Position numbers and translations under genes: made by a program. From contig JAFQEZ010000027.1 in NCBI GenBank assembly GCA_017398805.1, positions 1 through 36,667 of the forward strand: a stretch of DNA of 36,667 nucleotides, in the 5' to 3' direction. Below the pieces are notes generated by a model. That model had not been told where the DNA came from and made no database searches. It saw only the letters and a program-made list of their open reading frames with translations. Source of the DNA: Bacteroidaceae bacterium. GTDB lineage: Bacteria; Bacteroidota; Bacteroidia; Bacteroidales; Bacteroidaceae. This document shows positions 1-36,667 of the stretch, piece after piece; the stretch's first letter is position 1; every line of letters begins with the position of its first letter.

Positions 1-416
1 CGCCGGTACCGCCCCTACGGCGTTGTACTCTTTTGGGCACCCACAAGGGATGCCCCTACGGTATCTGTACTCTGTTATCTGTTCTCTGTACTCTTTCGGG
101 CGGACACGCCGGTACCGCCCCTACGGTGTCTGTACTCTGTTATCTGTTCTCTGTACTCTTTTGGGCACCCACAAGGGATGCCCCTACGGTATCTGTACTC
201 TGTTATCTGTTCTCTGTACTCTTTTGGGCGGACACGCCGGTACCGCCCCTACGGCGTTGTACTCTTTTGGGCACCCACAAGGGATGCCCCTACGGTATCT
301 GTACTCTGTTATCTGTTCTCTGTACTCTTTCGGGCGGACACGCCGGTACCGCCCCTACGGCGTTGTACTCTTTTGGGCACCCACAAGGGATGCCCCTACG
401 GTGTCTGTACTCTTTT
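1..416. repeat. Alternating array of two short palindromic repeats
   Basis: Two GC-rich units alternate B-A-B-A-B-A-B-A. Unit A (27 nt) lies at 35-61, 163-189, 269-295 and 375-401. It folds as GGGCA/TGCCC outside CCC/GGG with an ACAA loop. Unit B (29 nt) lies at 98-126, 226-254 and 332-360, with a truncated copy at 1-20, and has a GGGCGG/CCGCCC stem. Both end in CCCCTACGG. The linkers are either a longer TCTGTACTCTGTTATC-type stretch or a short GTTGTACTCTTTT stretch, and are nearly identical from copy to copy, which excludes a CRISPR array. All three reading frames run open across parts of the array, but only because the period is regular. I see no gene here. The array ends about 36 bp before the ilv promoter and continues past the left edge of the window. 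Confidence 0.9.
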
Positions 417-452
417 ATTGTAAACTATTTTCGCGGTTTTGTGGCGAATTGC

Positions 453-483
453 TTGTATATAACTCAAAAAAGGAGTATTTTTG
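453..483 (+). promoter_or_regulatory. Promoter of the ilv operon (Bacteroidetes type)
   Basis: A -33 element TTG at 453-455 is separated by exactly 20 bp from a -7 element TATTTTTG at 476-483, matching the TTTG / TAnnTTTG consensus of the Bacteroidetes primary sigma factor. Transcription would start near 490. This leaves about 13 nt before the leader peptide and about 146 nt before ilvD. Confidence 0.75.
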
Positions 484-502
484 CAATCCATTTGATTAAA
501 AG

Positions 503-562
503 ATGTACATGCGCAATAGTGTGATTATAGCAATTGGCATTATTATCCAGTCTACTTTTTAG
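503..562 (+). CDS. Ile/Val-rich leader peptide of the ilv attenuator
   Basis: A 19-codon open frame starts about 13 nt after the predicted transcription start and ends in TAG at 560-562. It reads [19 protein letters not shown]: six isoleucines and one valine within nine consecutive codons (521-547), both end products of the downstream operon. A second in-frame ATG at 509 is an alternative start. Together with the hairpins at 565-621, this is the arrangement of a classic amino-acid leader peptide, where ribosome stalling at Ile or Val codons controls read-through into ilvD. The function is inferred from composition and position. The frame is too short for standard gene callers. Confidence 0.75.
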
Positions 563-564
563 GC

Positions 565-621
565 GGGATGGGCGTGCATGTGTTTTAGGTTGCCTTTCTC
601 GATTTGAGAAGGGCGTTTTTT
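565..621 (+). promoter_or_regulatory. Transcription attenuator upstream of ilvD (antiterminator/terminator switch)
   Basis: Two mutually exclusive pairings share the segment 592-600 (GCCTTTCTC). The terminator pairs 592-600 with 606-614. The alternative pairs 565-573 (GGGATGGGC) with 592-600, eight of nine positions pairing with two G-U wobbles. Segment 565-573 begins 3 nt after the leader stop codon. A ribosome that reaches the stop would cover it and allow the terminator to form. A ribosome stalled in the Ile run (up to about 547) would leave it free and allow antitermination. The geometry is seen in the sequence. The mechanism is inferred from known ilv/his/trp attenuators. Confidence 0.7.
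592..621 (+). terminator. Intrinsic terminator inside the ilv leader
   Basis: The stem is GCCTTTCTC (592-600) with GAGAAGGGC (606-614): nine pairs with one G-U and a five-base loop GATTT. A single G follows, then six T residues at 616-621. It lies 14 nt before the ilvD start codon, so it can only act on ilv transcription itself. Confidence 0.8.
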
Positions 622-635
622 GTAAAAGAAGTGAT

Positions 636-2438
636 ATGAAGATAAAGTTGAGAAGTGCCCAATGTACCGAGGGACGCCGCATGGCCGGTGCACGTGCCTT
701 GTGGATTGCAAACGGTATGAAACGTGAGATGTTCGGCAAGCCGATAATTGCTGTTGCGAATTCCTTTACACAGCTTGTGCCGGGGCATACGCATCTGCAT
801 GAGGCTGGTCAGATAGTGAAGGCGGAGATTGAGAAACTCGGTTGCTATGCTGCCGAGTTCAACACGATAGCGATTGATGACGGTATAGCCATGGGGCATG
901 ACGGAATGCTCTATTCGTTGCCTTCGCGCGACATCATTGCCGACAGCGTGGAGTATATGTGCAATGCGCACAAGGTGGATGCTCTTGTGTGTATATCCAA
1001 CTGCGACAAGATTACTCCGGGTATGCTGATGGCGGCCATGCGCCTGAATATACCTACGGTGTTCGTTTCGGGCGGTCCAATGGAGAAGGGTACATGGAAG
1101 AATGAGAACCTGGATTTGGTGGTGGCGATGGTGAAGGCTGCCGACACTACGGTGGGTGACGAGGAACTTGAAGAGATTGAGAGACGTTCATGTCCGGGCT
1201 GCGGATGCTGCTCGGGAATGTTCACTGCTAACTCCATGAACTCGCTGACCGAGGCAATCGGTCTCTCTTTGCCAGGCAACGGTACTATACTTGCAACACA
1301 TGTGAACCGTGTGCAGCTGCTCAAGGATGCAGCAAAGCAGGTGGTTGAGAATGCCATGAGATATTACGGCGAGGGTGATGAAAGCGTACTCCCACGCAGT
1401 ATTGCAACGCGCGAGGCTTTCCTCAATGCCATGACACTCGATATTGCAATGGGTGGTTCAACAAACACTATACTTCACCTCTTGGCGGTTGCTCAGGAGG
1501 CAGGGGTGGATTTCAAGATGGAGGATATCGATGCTCTAAGCCGCAAGGTACCTTGTCTATGCAAGCTTGCCCCTAACGGACAGAAGTATGCGGTGCAGGA
1601 TTGCGGACGTGCAGGCGGTATACTCGGCATTATGGGTGAACTTGCAAAGGGCGGTCTCCTTGATACAACGGTAAAGCGTGTGAACGGTGCGACACTTGCA
1701 TCTGACATTGAGAAATATTCGATAACAGGTGCAACGGTCGACGGTGAGGCAATGAGAATATACAGCACGGCTCCGGCAAACCGTTTCTGTAACAGCATGG
1801 GGGCGCAGGATAGTGTATATGAGACTCTTGACTGTGATAGAGAAAACGGTTGTATCCGATCTCTTGAGAATGCATATACCAAGGATGGCGGTCTTGCGAT
1901 ACTATTCGGCAATATCGCTAAGGACGGTTGTGTGGTCAAGACTGCCGGTGTCGACGAGAGCATATGGCGCTTCAGCGGCAAGGCAAAGGTCTTCGATTCA
2001 CAGGAGGCTGCAGTCGAGGGTATCCTTGGCGGTGCTGTCGAGGCCGGTGATGTGGTCGTGATTGTCTACGAAGGTCCCAAGGGCGGTCCCGGTATGCAGG
2101 AGATGCTCTATCCTACATCATACATAAAGTCACGTCATCTTGGCAAGGAATGTGCGCTAATCACCGACGGACGTTTCAGTGGAGGAACATCGGGCCTCAG
2201 CATAGGACATATATCACCCGAGGCTGCTGCAGGCGGCAATATCGGCAAATTGCGCGACGGTGACATAATAGACATCGATATTCCTGCGCGTTCAATAAAC
2301 GTAAGGCTCAGCGACGAGGAACTTGAAGCACGCGAGATGTTCCCTCTTACACGCGACAGGGTTGTATCAAAGAGCCTCAAGGCGTATGCCAATATGGTAA
2401 GTTCAGCCGATAAGGGCGGTGTGAGGATAATAGAATAA
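636..2438 (+). CDS. ilvD: Dihydroxy-acid dehydratase
   Basis: IlvD dehydrates 2,3-dihydroxy-isovalerate and dihydroxy-methylvalerate to the 2-keto acids, the third common step of valine and isoleucine synthesis, in the cytoplasm with an iron-sulphur cluster. The start at 636 ([10 protein letters not shown]) gives 600 residues, close to the usual 600-616. The open frame extends upstream to 534, but that part overlaps the attenuator. Cluster ligand motifs are present: SNCDKITPG (Cys123) and [17 protein letters not shown] (Cys192), with the DD at 81-82 and the C-terminal [10 protein letters not shown] motif. It is first in the operon, 24 bp before ilvB, and expected to be controlled by the leader attenuator. 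Confidence 0.96.
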
Positions 2439-2462: not shown

Positions 2463-4154
2463 ATGAAAGATAGGATAACAGGTAGCGAGGCGCTTATGCG
2501 CTCGCTTGTGAATGAGGGGGTCGACACGGTCTTCGGTTATCCCGGCGGTTCTATAATGCCGGTATTCGATGCCATGTACGACTACCGTGATGTTTTCCGC
2601 AGTGTGCTTGTGCGCCATGAGCAGGGTGCAGTGCATGCCGCTCAGGGATATGCCCGCAGTTCGGGCAAGGTGGGTCTTTGCATTGTGACAAGCGGTCCGG
2701 GTGCAACCAATACATTGACCGGTATAAGTGATGCCATGCTCGACAGTACTCCGGTTGTGGTTATTGCCGGTCAGGTGGCTTCGGCAGTACTCGGTACGGA
2801 TGCGTTCCAGGAGATTGACTTTGTGGGTATAACACAGCCAATCACAAAATGGAGTTACCAGATACGTCGTGCCGAGGATGTTGCCTGGGCAGTGGCAAGG
2901 GCATTCTACATTGCCGGAACAGGACGTCCCGGTCCGGTAGTGCTCGACTTTACAAAGGATGCGCAGACCGCATTGGTGGATTTTGAGACCGCAAAGGTTG
3001 ACAGCGTGAGAAGTTATATCCCTTATCCCACTCCTTCGCGTAGTGCAATAGAGGAGGCCGCAGCCCTGATAAATGAGGCCAAGCGTCCTTTCGTGCTTGT
3101 CGGGCAGGGTGTAGAGCTGGGCGAGGCGCACGAGGAGCTGAAAGCGTTCATCGAGAAGGGCGATATTCCTGCAGCGCGTACCCTTATGGGTCTTTCGGCA
3201 TTGCCGAGTGACCATCCATTGTGTGTGGGCATGCTCGGTATGCATGGAAATTATGGTCCCAACTACAATACCAACGAGTGTGATTTGCTCATTGCTGTAG
3301 GTATGCGTTTCAGTGACCGCGTGACAGGCAATGTCAAGACCTATGCAAAGCAGGCGAAGGTGATACACATTGATATCGACCATGCCGAAATAAACAAGAA
3401 TGTGCGTGTGGATGTTCCTATTGTAGGAGACTGCAAGGAGGTGCTCCCCATGTTGACCGAACTGATAGATACAGCATTGCATAAGGAGTGGATAGAGAGT
3501 TTCCGCAAGCTGAACGCGATTGAGGATGAGAAGGTGACCGAAAAGGCATTGAACCCGGGCGAAGGAGCGCTTCTCATGGGTGAAGTTGCACGCAAGGTCA
3601 GCGAGGCAACGGGCAACAGCGCGATACTTGTAACAGATGTGGGTCAGAACCAGATGATGTCGGCACGCTATTTCAAGTACACGAAGCCGCATAGCATACT
3701 CACTTCGGGCGGTCTTGGAACGATGGGTTACGGACTGCCGGCTGCCATCGGTGCAAAGATAGCAATGCCGGAACGTGATGTATGTCTCTTTGTGGGTGAC
3801 GGCGGTCTGCAGATGAATATCCAGGAGTTCGGTACTATAATGGAACAGGGGGCTGCCGTGAAGATAATTCTGCTTAACAATAACTATCTCGGCAATGTGC
3901 GCCAGTGGCAGGAGCTCTTCTTCAATCACCGTTATTCGTGGACACCGATGCTTAACCCTGACTATGGTCTTATAGCAAAGGGATACAACATTGCATCACG
4001 TCTGGTGACAGAACGTGCGGAACTCGACGATGCAATCAGGGAGATGCTTGAGACTCCGGGAGCATTCCTGCTGCATGTGGCTGTAAAGGAGGAGGCGAAC
4101 GTGATGCCGATGACTCCGCCGGGAGCAACAGTAAGTGAGATGATTTTTGAATAA
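2463..4154 (+). CDS. ilvB: Acetolactate synthase, large (catalytic) subunit
   Basis: This ThDP- and FAD-dependent enzyme condenses two pyruvates to acetolactate, or pyruvate with 2-ketobutyrate to acetohydroxybutyrate, the committed step of Val/Leu/Ile synthesis. At 563 residues it has the standard length. The catalytic glutamate of the N-terminal ThDP domain lies in RHEQGAVHAA (Glu53), after GYPGGSIMPVFDAM. The ThDP/Mg motif GDGGLQMNIQEF with the following NNNYLG is near residues 440-475. It is followed 6 bp later by the regulatory subunit, as in the bipartite bacterial enzyme. A long open frame on the opposite strand is a shadow of this gene. Confidence 0.96.
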   Translation: MKDRITGSEALMRSLVNEGVDTVFGYPGGSIMPVFDAMYDYRDVFRSVLVRHEQGAVHAAQGYARSSGKVGLCIVTSGPGATNTLTGISDAMLDSTPVVVIAGQVASAVLGTDAFQEIDFVGITQPITKWSYQIRRAEDVAWAVARAFYIAGTGRPGPVVLDFTKDAQTALVDFETAKVDSVRSYIPYPTPSRSAIEEAAALINEAKRPFVLVGQGVELGEAHEELKAFIEKGDIPAARTLMGLSALPSDHPLCVGMLGMHGNYGPNYNTNECDLLIAVGMRFSDRVTGNVKTYAKQAKVIHIDIDHAEINKNVRVDVPIVGDCKEVLPMLTELIDTALHKEWIESFRKLNAIEDEKVTEKALNPGEGALLMGEVARKVSEATGNSAILVTDVGQNQMMSARYFKYTKPHSILTSGGLGTMGYGLPAAIGAKIAMPERDVCLFVGDGGLQMNIQEFGTIMEQGAAVKIILLNNNYLGNVRQWQELFFNHRYSWTPMLNPDYGLIAKGYNIASRLVTERAELDDAIREMLETPGAFLLHVAVKEEANVMPMTPPGATVSEMIFE

Positions 4155-4160
4155 ACGACT

Positions 4161-4709
4161 ATGGAAAAGAGACTATATACCATTATTATATATACCGAGA
4201 ATATCGCCGGTATGCTGAACCAGGTTACAGCCGAGTTCACACGTAGGATGATGAACATCGACACTATCACCGCATCCTCGTCATCGCTTGACGGTGTGCA
4301 CCGCTACACGATATCGCTTTGGGGCGAGGAGGATTCGGTACATAAGGTAACCAAGCGTATCGCAAAGAAAGTGGATGTGCTCAAGGCCGACTACTACACC
4401 GACAACGAAATCTTCTTCCAGGAGGTGGCACTTTACAAGCTATCTACTCCCAAGGTGCTTGCCGACAGTGAGATATCACGTATCATACGCCACAGCACAG
4501 CGCGTGTGATTGAGGTGAACGACAACTATACGGTAGTGGAGATGACGGGACAGACCGATGTCATCGTTTCGCTCTACAACGATTTTGTGGCGCGTGGATG
4601 TATGTTGCAGTTCGTGAAGTCGGGTCGTGTGGCAGTGCCCCGTGCATCACAGGAGAAACTGAGCGAACTTTTGTTCGATGAGGATTATAAGCGACATATA
4701 AAAAAATAA
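4161..4709 (+). CDS. ilvN: Acetolactate synthase, small (regulatory) subunit
   Basis: This is the regulatory partner of IlvB, which activates it and gives feedback inhibition by branched-chain amino acids. At 182 residues it belongs to the longer IlvH-like type. An N-terminal ACT domain (about residues 4-75, YTIIIYTENIAGMLNQVTAEF) is followed by a C-terminal ALS_ss_C domain (about 85-165, with KVLADSEISRIIRHSTARVIEV). It starts 6 bp after ilvB, so the two are probably translationally coupled. The name ilvH would be equally acceptable on length. Many Bacteroides genomes, as I remember them, carry an acyl-ACP thioesterase next; here only 123 bp of non-coding DNA follows. Confidence 0.93.
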   Translation: MEKRLYTIIIYTENIAGMLNQVTAEFTRRMMNIDTITASSSSLDGVHRYTISLWGEEDSVHKVTKRIAKKVDVLKADYYTDNEIFFQEVALYKLSTPKVLADSEISRIIRHSTARVIEVNDNYTVVEMTGQTDVIVSLYNDFVARGCMLQFVKSGRVAVPRASQEKLSELLFDEDYKRHIKK

Positions 4710-4832: not shown

Positions 4833-5876
4833 ATGGCAGAAATGAATTTTGGCGGAGTGATTGAGAATGTTACCACTCCCGTAGAGTTTTCACTTGAAAA
4901 GGCACGCGAGGTGCTTAAGAACGAGACAATAGCAGTGCTTGGATATGGTGTACAGGGTCCGGGCCAGTCATGCAATCTCCGTGATAACGGCTTCAATGTG
5001 ATTGTCGGTCAGCGCAAGGGCGCTACATATGACAAGGCGGTTGCCGACGGTTGGGTGCCCGGCGAGACTCTCTTCTCGCTTGAGGAGGCTGCAGAACGTG
5101 GTACTATTGTCTGTATGCTTCTCTCCGATGCTGCTCAGATTGCAGTATGGCCCAAAATCAAGGAATCGCTCACTGCAGGCAAGGCTCTTTACTTCTCGCA
5201 CGGCTTCGGTATCAACTGGAGCGACAGGACCGGTATTGTACCTCCTGCCGATGTTGATGTGATTATGGTTGCTCCAAAGGGATCAGGTACATCACTGCGT
5301 ACAATGTTCCTTGAGGGTCGTGGCGTGAACGCATCATATGCCGTTCATCAGGATGCAACCGGCAAAGCGCTTGAGAGGGTGCTTGCACTCGGTATCGGTA
5401 TAGGTTCGGGTTATATGTTCGAGACTACATTCGAACGCGAGGCTGTATCGGACCTCACTGGCGAGCGCGGTTCACTTATGGGTGCAATCCAGGGACTCTT
5501 TCTTGCACAGTATGAGGTGCTCCGCGAGAACGGTCATACACCGTCAGAGGCTTTCAATGAGACTGTAGAGGAACTTACACAGTCGCTCATGCCTCTCTTC
5601 TCGGCAAAGGGTATGGACTGGATGTATGCGAATTGCTCTACAACAGCGCAGCGTGGTGCATTGGATTGGATGACTCCTTTCCATGACGCCATAAAGCCTG
5701 TAATGTACAAGCTCTATGACTCTGTAAAGAGCGGTAACGAGGCACAGATATCAATCGACTCAAACTCTCAGCCCGACTATCGCGAGAAACTCAACGAGGA
5801 ACTCAAGGCACTCCGCGAGAGCGAGATGTGGCGCACTGCAGAGGTTGTACGCCGCCTGCGCCCGGAGAATAATTGA
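4833..5876 (+). CDS. ilvC: Ketol-acid reductoisomerase (NADP+)
   Basis: IlvC performs the Mg-dependent alkyl shift and NADPH reduction of acetolactate or acetohydroxybutyrate, the step between IlvBN and IlvD. At 347 residues, with the Rossmann motif GYGVQGPGQSCNLRDNG near residues 37-53, it is a class I enzyme of the variant seen in Bacteroidetes and yeast mitochondria. Mg-site acidic residues are in DLTGERGSLMGAIQG and the C-terminal knotted domain. It lies 123 bp after ilvN, in AT-rich DNA with no clear hairpin. It may be read through from the operon or have its own weak promoter: TATTTTTA at 4779-4786 is a possible -7, but no -33 is at the right distance. Confidence 0.96.
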   Translation: MAEMNFGGVIENVTTPVEFSLEKAREVLKNETIAVLGYGVQGPGQSCNLRDNGFNVIVGQRKGATYDKAVADGWVPGETLFSLEEAAERGTIVCMLLSDAAQIAVWPKIKESLTAGKALYFSHGFGINWSDRTGIVPPADVDVIMVAPKGSGTSLRTMFLEGRGVNASYAVHQDATGKALERVLALGIGIGSGYMFETTFEREAVSDLTGERGSLMGAIQGLFLAQYEVLRENGHTPSEAFNETVEELTQSLMPLFSAKGMDWMYANCSTTAQRGALDWMTPFHDAIKPVMYKLYDSVKSGNEAQISIDSNSQPDYREKLNEELKALRESEMWRTAEVVRRLRPENN

Positions 5877-35718: not shown

Positions 35719-35805
35719 GGAAGTTTGGGTGAGTGGCTGAAACCAGCAGTTTGCTAAACTGCCGTACGGGTTACCGTACCGGGGGTTCGAATCCCCCAGC
35801 TTCCG
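35719..35805 (+). tRNA. tRNA-Ser (anticodon GCU)
   Basis: The acceptor stem GGAAGTT/AGCTTCC is closed (one G-U), followed by discriminator G. The anticodon stem GCAGT/ACTGC holds the loop TTGCTAA, giving anticodon GCT (reads AGC/AGU). A long variable arm, GTACGG-GTTA-CCGTAC, and the T arm GGGGGTTCGAATCCCCC mark a serine tRNA. CCA is not encoded. It starts 27 nt after the predicted transcription start and lies 15 bp before the first tRNA-Glu. Confidence 0.95.
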
Positions 35806-35820
35806 CTTATTTTTGCGAAC

Positions 35821-35893
35821 GGCGCTTTCGTCTAGTGGCTAGGACACATGCCTCTCACGCATGGAACACGGGTTCGATTCCCGTAGGCGCTAC
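35821..35893 (+). tRNA. tRNA-Glu (anticodon CUC), copy 1
   Basis: The anticodon stem CATGC/GCATG holds the loop CTCTCAC, giving anticodon CTC. The D arm starts TCGTCTAGTGGCTAGGAC as in glutamate tRNAs, and the T arm is ACGGG/CCCGT around TTCGATT. The acceptor pairs GGCGCTT with AGGCGCT with G-U at the first and sixth pairs. CCA is not encoded. Identical to the copies at 36089 and 36595. Confidence 0.92.
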
Positions 35894-36040
35894 AAAGAAG
35901 AGCAAGTACGGTGAAAACAAGTGGCTAGGACATATGCCTCTCACACCTTGTTTTTGTTACGAACACGAGTTCGATTCCCGTAGGCGCTACAAGCTGAGCA
36001 AATACGGTTTACAAACATGTTTTGATTCTGTAGGCGCTAC
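35894..36040 (+). repeat. tRNA-Glu-derived decayed repeats, block 1 (two units)
   Basis: Unit d1 (35894-35990, 97 nt) keeps the tRNA-Glu D-arm start, anticodon loop region and 3' half (AGTGGCTAGGACATATGCC, CTCTCAC, TTCGATTCCCGTAGGCGC). The 5' acceptor strand is replaced by unrelated sequence. The 3' strand of the anticodon stem (GCATG) is replaced by ACCTTGTTTTTGTTAC. Unit d2 (35991-36040, 50 nt) is a shorter, internally deleted version that ends in the same TAGGCGCTAC. Neither can fold as a functional tRNA. Confidence 0.85.
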
Positions 36041-36058
36041 AGTGAAAAGAATCATTAT

Positions 36059-36077
36059 AGCACTTCGGTGTTTTTTT
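36059..36077 (+). terminator. UUCG-tetraloop terminator after block 1
   Basis: AGCAC (36059-36063) pairs with GTGTT (36068-36072) around a TTCG tetraloop, followed immediately by T residues to 36077. An identical copy is at 36565-36583. It lies 12 bp before the second tRNA-Glu. Confidence 0.7.
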
Positions 36078-36088
36078 AATGCCTTTAT

Positions 36089-36161
36089 GGCGCTTTCGTC
36101 TAGTGGCTAGGACACATGCCTCTCACGCATGGAACACGGGTTCGATTCCCGTAGGCGCTAC
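36089..36161 (+). tRNA. tRNA-Glu (anticodon CUC), copy 2
   Basis: Base-for-base identical to copy 1, with all stems intact, anticodon CTC and no encoded CCA. It lies after the first UUCG terminator, and no obvious promoter precedes it in the 48-bp spacer. Its expression depends on read-through or an unrecognised promoter. Confidence 0.92.
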
Positions 36162-36546
36162 AAACTGAGCAAATACGGTGAAAACTGGTGGCTAGGACAC
36201 ATGCCTCTCACACCTTGTTTTTGTTACGAACACAGGTTCTATTCCCGTAGGCGCTACAAGCCAAGCAAATACGGTGAAAACCGGTGGCTAGGACACATGC
36301 CTCTCACACCTTGTTTTTGTTACGAACATAGGTTCGATTCCCGTAGGCGCTACAAGCTAAAGCAAATACGGTGAAAACAAGTGGCTAGGACACATGCCTC
36401 TCACACCTTGTTTTTGTTACGAACACGAGTTCGATTCCCGTAGGCGCTACAAACTAAGCAAATACGGTGAAAACAAGTGGCTAGGATACATGCCTCTCAC
36501 ACCTTGTTTTTGTTACGAACACAGGTTCGATTCCCGTAGGCGCTAC
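36162..36546 (+). repeat. tRNA-Glu-derived decayed repeats, block 2 (four units)
   Basis: Four head-to-tail units, d3 36162-36257, d4 36258-36353, d5 36354-36450 and d6 36451-36546 (96, 96, 97, 96 nt), share the d1 architecture. Each has AAGCNNAGCAAATACGGTG-like leader sequence, then GTGGCTAGGA, CTCTCAC, the inserted ACCTTGTTTTTGTTAC, GAACA, and the TTCGATTCCCGTAGGCGC 3' end. T-stem mismatches occur in every unit. All end in the acceptor 3' strand TAGGCGCTAC, but none has its pairing partner. Confidence 0.88.
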
Positions 36547-36564
36547 AAAGAAAAGTATCATTAT

Positions 36565-36583
36565 AGCACTTCGGTGTTTTTTT
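36565..36583 (+). terminator. UUCG-tetraloop terminator after block 2
   Basis: Same hairpin as at 36059-36077: AGCAC/GTGTT with TTCG loop (36565-36578), and T-run to 36583. The last 38 nt of the two 48-nt spacers (36041-36088 and 36547-36594) are identical, showing that the spacer was duplicated with the tRNA. Confidence 0.7.
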
Positions 36584-36594
36584 AATGCCTTTAT

Positions 36595-36667
36595 GGCGCT
36601 TTCGTCTAGTGGCTAGGACACATGCCTCTCACGCATGGAACACGGGTTCGATTCCCGTAGGCGCTAC
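36595..36667 (+). tRNA. tRNA-Glu (anticodon CUC), copy 3, at the window edge
   Basis: Identical in sequence to copies 1 and 2, complete, with anticodon CTC. The window ends at its last base, so further decayed units or tRNAs may follow. Confidence 0.92.

Follow-up and report, generated by a model that had tools for sequence, protein, structure and literature searches.

The ilvDBNC operon of a Bacteroidaceae bacterium, located in the 36,667-nt stretch of DNA analysed here (the window), is probably controlled by ribosome-mediated transcription attenuation that senses charged tRNA-Ile, a reading to which we assign a probability of about 0.82. The first-pass annotation of this DNA had interpreted the region upstream of ilvD in the same way, and the computational results presented below support this interpretation well. 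In the mechanism that we infer, including its start site, leader translation, termination in vivo and the response to isoleucine, the transcript would begin near position 490, and an undelayed ribosome would reach the stop codon at 560-562 and cover 564-573, upon which the terminator at 592-621 would form and transcription would end before ilvD. Under a shortage of charged tRNA-Ile, the ribosome would stall at the Ile codons at 539-547, disturb the fold spanning 506-582 and leave 564-573 free to pair with 592-601; with the latter segment captured, RNA polymerase would continue into ilvD. On a transcript carrying no ribosome, the long-range pairing of 506-514 with 574-582 would favour termination.

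Leader, terminator and modelled switch in the window

The genes ilvD, ilvB, ilvN and ilvC lie on one strand downstream of the putative attenuator (Table 1). The ORF list contains a TTG-started extension of ilvD (534-2438), which had been suspected to be spurious, and the alignment with relatives begins at the ATG at 636. Direct reading locates the promoter box where it had been placed before; it fits TAnnTTTG, which we take to be the Bacteroidota -7 box, and its position suggests a transcript start at about 488-492. Immediately upstream of this promoter, an imperfect repeat array (GGGCACCCACAAGGGATGCCCCTACGGT..., GGCGGACACGCCGGTACCGCCCCTACGG...) occupies positions 1-416 of the window, and a search with window 380-1380 matched additional copies of the repeats at 25 sites, of which 4 belong to the array and 21 are spread over 11 other contigs.

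Table 1. Features of the ilvDBNC region, in positions of the window; the regulatory elements are predicted.
Feature	Position	Strand	Detail
Promoter	453..483	+	TTG 453-455 and TATTTTTG 476-483, matching TAnnTTTG
Leader peptide frame	503..562	+	ATG 503, TAG 560-562, 19 codons
Long-range pairing, 5' arm	506..514	+	pairs with 574-582 in the minimum-energy fold
Regulatory codons Val Ile Ile Ala Ile Gly Ile Ile Ile	521..547	+	direct reading, shuffles, folding model
Antiterminator arm	564..573	+	starts 2 nt past the last base of the stop codon; duplex with 592-601
Long-range pairing, 3' arm	574..582	+	minimum-energy fold
Intrinsic terminator	592..621	+	predicted stem 592-600/606-614, U-tract 616-621
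ilvD, dihydroxy-acid dehydratase	636..2438	+	TIGR00110, 770 bits against a cut-off of 618
ilvB, acetolactate synthase large subunit	2463..4154	+	TIGR00118, 688 bits
ilvN, acetolactate synthase small subunit	4161..4709	+	TIGR00119, 85 bits
ilvC, ketol-acid reductoisomerase	4833..5876	+	TIGR00465, 316 bits

The 19-codon frame carries the expected cluster of codons for the pathway products, with six Ile codons and one Val codon (GTG ATT ATA GCA ATT GGC ATT ATT ATC), just as the first-pass annotation had read it. When the leader region was shuffled 4000 times, a short ATG frame with at least seven Ile or Val residues per nine codons arose only once. A second in-frame ATG at 509 is an alternative possible start, and read from this codon the Ile/Leu/Val content of the leader has a z of only 1.35 relative to its own shuffles. 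An intrinsic terminator is predicted between the leader and the first gene, and both it and the competing antiterminator lie where they had been proposed. The antiterminator arm pairs with the 5' part of the terminator at 9 of 10 positions, with one U-U mismatch, in a duplex of -13.2 kcal/mol (z -4.17, p 0.005, 200 shuffles). Taken together, the shuffle results for the leader and for the arm make chance a poor explanation of these parts.

The nascent RNA of the window was folded with its 3' end at base 606, a point at which the 3' arm of the terminator has barely begun, and the ribosome-covered bases were blocked. With the A-site on the Ile codon at 539, 542 or 545, the modelled probability of the antiterminator pairs is 0.97-0.98, compared with 0.00 for a ribosome at the stop codon and 0.00 without a ribosome; from the minimum-energy fold, we surmise that the long-range pairing would occupy the antiterminator arm in the absence of translation. 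A broader measure, i.e. capture of the terminator 5' arm by any upstream RNA, gave 0.84 for ribosomes stalled on 539-547, 0.16 for a ribosome at the stop codon and 0.13 without one. Stalling exceeded the stop position for 12 of 12 footprint sizes, the contrast being weakest with a footprint of 15 nt downstream and 15 or 18 nt upstream (0.42-0.44 at the stop), and the observed difference was reached in none of 500 shuffles of 563-591. The modelled fold of the window thus reproduces a switch in which a ribosome at the stop codon masks an antiterminator that excludes the terminator and a ribosome stalled on Ile does not, as the first-pass annotation had envisaged. Stalls at 521, 524 and 533 free the antiterminator poorly (0.36, 0.11 and 0.00) and a stall at 527 does so better (0.72), suggesting that the triple Ile at 539-547 is the likely sensing stretch.

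Recurrence upstream of ilvD in relatives

Upstream regions of ilvD were scored with a detector calling a terminator together with an ATG frame of 8-40 codons that ends no more than 70 nt before it and contains at least six Ile, Leu or Val residues, making up at least one third of the frame. Three sets were scored: a named set (the best 80 of 593 confirmed loci), a genus set (43 loci, that of the window among them, from 42 of 44 genomes) and a family set (100 loci from the family outside this genus, taken from sampled genomes at least 90% complete and excluding a fragmented ilvD in G133 and a match in G130 that was weak and partial). The best terminator within the last 150 nt was used for the named and genus sets, and any terminator within 450 nt for the family set. 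The detector matched 37 of 80 loci in the named set (still counting L013 and L032, which look false-positive), 21 of 43 in the genus set and 38 of 100 in the family set (likewise counting L219 and L245), compared with 2 of 984 shuffled ilvD upstream regions, a control that pertains to the 150-nt rule of the named and genus sets, and 2 of 94 upstream regions of other genes. Two near misses stand outside the named and genus counts, L040 with a GTG start and L047 with its terminator more than 150 nt from ilvD. Given this recurrence against the shuffles, the window element belongs, as judged from sequence, to a family of ilv attenuators that is widespread in Bacteroidales. One of the two matches at other genes, at position 332 of L045, comprises the leader MNATSVVLSLLVVILVKRK and a terminator before another gene upstream of ilvD; it may be real, and perhaps represents an attenuator that moved along with the operon order.

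The matches are unevenly distributed. Ten loci of the named set, seven Desulfobulbaceae-type and three spirochaete by record title, were all negative. In the family sample, four genera were positive throughout (g3 10/10, g12 10/10, g7 6/6 and g21 3/3), and four were negative throughout (g5 0/7, g9 0/9, g13 0/10 and g17 0/9); by likeness to named loci, the former appear to be Bacteroides/Phocaeicola-like and the latter Prevotella-like.

Pairing and frame were compared in 60 leader-bearing loci, 39 named and 21 of the genus, among which L013 and L032 are still counted. Ile, Leu and Val make up 50% of frame 0 in these leaders and 25% and 14% of the two alternative frames, a contrast that is partly circular as the frames had been selected for content. 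The duplex between arm and terminator has a median z of -2.7, with p<=0.05 in 41 loci and p<=0.01 in 18, and in 48 of the 60 the start of the arm falls in the interval from 8 nt before to 5 nt after the end of the leader stop codon. With a mid-leader ribosome, capture of the terminator arm averages 0.77, and with a ribosome at the stop codon it averages 0.40; 43 loci gain more than 0.2 on stalling and 17 do not. Shuffling of the stretch from stop to terminator changed these means to 0.62 and 0.47, respectively, so the control discriminates only in part; several loci have their arm within the frame, which stayed unshuffled.

A further comparison covered 96 loci, which remain of 223 after exclusion of L013, L032, L219 and L245 among others, and which give 77 distinct terminator/arm sets. 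In some of them, e.g. L060, the terminator 5' arm has changed and both of its partners still pair; for these sets, the best-matching segment was taken as the arm, and the terminator was chosen by its own pairing. The core CCTTTCTC is nearly invariant across the 96, which limits the covariation. Of these loci, 90 have a located frame and 90 nt of upstream sequence; 78 of the 90 carry TAnnTTTG no more than 90 nt ahead of the leader start, compared with 188 of 1800 shuffles, and in 65 of these 78 the distance to the leader ATG is 18-40 nt. This recurrent box indirectly suggests that transcription probably starts before the leader, and it does not speak for a start downstream of 562, which the first-pass annotation had named as refuting.

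Conservation of the short frame and the competing pairings in relatives had been set as a test by the first-pass annotation; both recur in the genus, named and family sets, but the leader has been lost in most of the nearest relatives. The absence of a Leu codon, which had been singled out as well, is true of the window but not of its relatives, whose leaders as a rule contain Leu besides Ile or Val.

The clade of the window and competing explanations

The ilvD tree of the genus contains 21 loci in leader-bearing lineages (19 Val-rich and 2 altered; L120, slightly below the detector threshold, was classed by hand as Val-rich) and one clade of 22 loci, including the window, from which the usual Val-Val-Val-Leu leader is gone. 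Three of the 22 have an Ile-dominated leader, namely the window, L093 (MRQSIIFTRINIITSLLR) and L124 (MLFQAIGIIGIIDYLSIG). The other 19 do not have an Ile/Leu/Val leader that passes the detector, and no leader was found upstream of ilvD in the near relatives L091, L092 and L096 when it was looked for; in five of the 19 (L101, L104, L106, L110 and L131) a conserved 16-pair hairpin (GUGUUCGG..GUCGUUGA / UCAGUGACUUCCGAAAC, two pairs changed on both sides among five sequences) replaces the leader upstream of a similar terminator, and 14 simply do not have a passing leader. An H-type pseudoknot considered for L101, L104, L106 and L110 was discarded, as the consensus fold that includes L131 as well consists of one long hairpin.

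These losses could mean that the window itself carries a decaying attenuator, in which an ancestral Val/Leu/Ile leader worked and the terminator and a frame have been kept, with control that is now weak or constitutive. Consistent with decay, 16 of the 19 loci without a passing leader retain a terminator, leuA and leuC are missing from 15 clade genomes, and the two other Ile leaders show no switch in the model (L093 0.71 at the stop and 0.44 stalled; L124 at most 0.44 stalled). In the window, however, the frame with its seven Ile or Val residues per nine codons, the arm and the modelled switch are all intact, each of them seldom or never equalled by shuffles as described above, and we regard decay as improbable for this locus.

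Full-length leuA is present in 27 of 44 genus genomes and was not found in that of the window, with gene absence being judged on draft assemblies (the window genome is 87% complete and G021 62%). The leuC pattern in the genus equals that of leuA except in G034, and ilvA is present in 41 of the 44, including the genome of the window. Within the clade, leuA is absent from 15 and present in 6 of the 21 assigned genomes (the remaining locus, L100, is an additional copy from a mixed bin), and all 19 Val-rich leaders sit in leuA-bearing genomes. Leader type and leuA were at first sight linked, but the link is perfect in one direction only and was rejected as an established association: the tree offers 2 independent contrasts on supported branches and 4 on all branches, so the link falls short of significance and is not phylogenetically independent. 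Outside the genus, G080 does not have leuA and keeps a leader bearing Val and Leu, and G139 has neither leuA nor a leader. Since the clade includes leuA-bearing genomes without a leader, leader loss may have preceded the loss of leuA. We tentatively speculate, and consider it doubtful, that one clade was re-tuned from the Val-Val-Val-Leu core to Ile codons as leucine synthesis was shed, with sister lineages losing the leader or gaining the hairpin. If so, the codons of an attenuator would mirror the branched-chain pathways that a bacterium still owns. The clade, in which the attenuator decays, may show in what way such a sensor is redirected or disappears once its pathway is gone.

It is very unlikely that the window contains just a plain terminator or a small RNA gene before ilvD, preceded by an Ile-rich frame that arose by accident in A+T-rich sequence. 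The Ile/Leu/Val fraction of the leader, only 1.35 sd above its own shuffles, would fit such an accident, but leaders rich in these residues stand at the same place in dozens of relatives, the antiterminator arm starts close to the end of the leader stop codon in most of the 60 loci, and upstream regions of other genes rarely match, one of the two that do being the L045 element ahead of ilvD. Least probable of all is a ligand-binding riboswitch or a protein-controlled terminator, for which the long hairpin before a similar terminator in five clade loci might speak, but no Rfam family (4227 families) matched at gathering score in window 453-636 or in 20 relatives, and what the window shows is a coding frame with a small switch; a relaxed search of the window (E up to 5) returned a single weak match, rli42, at 13.3 bits against 80.

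Relation to known systems and further observations in the genome

Leader-peptide attenuation is textbook knowledge in enterobacteria, where ilvGMEDA and ilvBN are controlled by ilv attenuators. Judged from its sequence, the Bacteroidales family is known in kind, as a putative ribosome-mediated attenuator, and lies outside Rfam. It shares with the two enterobacterial systems a leader with branched-chain codons, a terminator and a competing antiterminator, and in the window it differs from them in a leader that is Ile-dominated and without Leu, an arm directly past the stop codon and a Bacteroidota promoter. To our knowledge, Bacteroidales translation starts as a rule do not have a Shine-Dalgarno sequence. 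These starts and the coupling of transcription and translation are poorly known in this order, and we found little literature on attenuation there; a family that is so common and so simple, with its arm right past the stop codon, would make an easy reporter for coupling in Bacteroidales. For comparison within the phylum, Flavobacterium psychrophilum belongs to another class, and the Bacteroid-trp RNA (RF01692) has a Trp leader.

The transcriptome of F. psychrophilum led to the suggestion of leader-peptide attenuation upstream of amino-acid operons, with ilv absent from the main text (PMC9723704), and short frames reminiscent of leader peptides have been described in 5' UTRs of B. thetaiotaomicron (PMC7366714). 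The Bacteroid-trp RNA resembles the window element as a cis-regulatory RNA of Bacteroidetes (PMC2864571) and gave no gathering-score match in the window or in 20 relatives. Leader-peptide attenuators of ilv genes in other lineages include ilvB-II (Corynebacterium), ilvB-OMG and the Leptospira ilvB motif; they share a frame with branched-chain codons before an ilv gene, and in ilvB-II a terminator, and differ in being ilvB-led (PMC10272879). The ilvD (WRC-18-2) motif is similar in being a structured RNA immediately before ilvD with a possible terminator in some cases, and differs in having been proposed as a weak candidate for a riboswitch that is restricted to Veillonella (PMC8632094). Among the literature matches listed, none describes an ilv attenuator in Bacteroidales, although the broad survey of Lopatovskaya 2010 may hold one.

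A search of the draft genome of the window (87% complete) found neither hisG nor trpE nor a full-length leuA, suggesting that the bacterium is auxotrophic for several amino acids while it retains the Ile/Val pathway. Neither inspection by eye nor the short-frame list made another attenuator evident upstream of ilvA or upstream of two genes for aspartokinase. The ilvA leader (L249) contains a hairpin at G000:C89:5081-5108, AGCCTTC..GAAGGCT, without a U-tract. At the far end of the window, positions 35719-36666 hold four tRNA genes, three of them with identical score and length.
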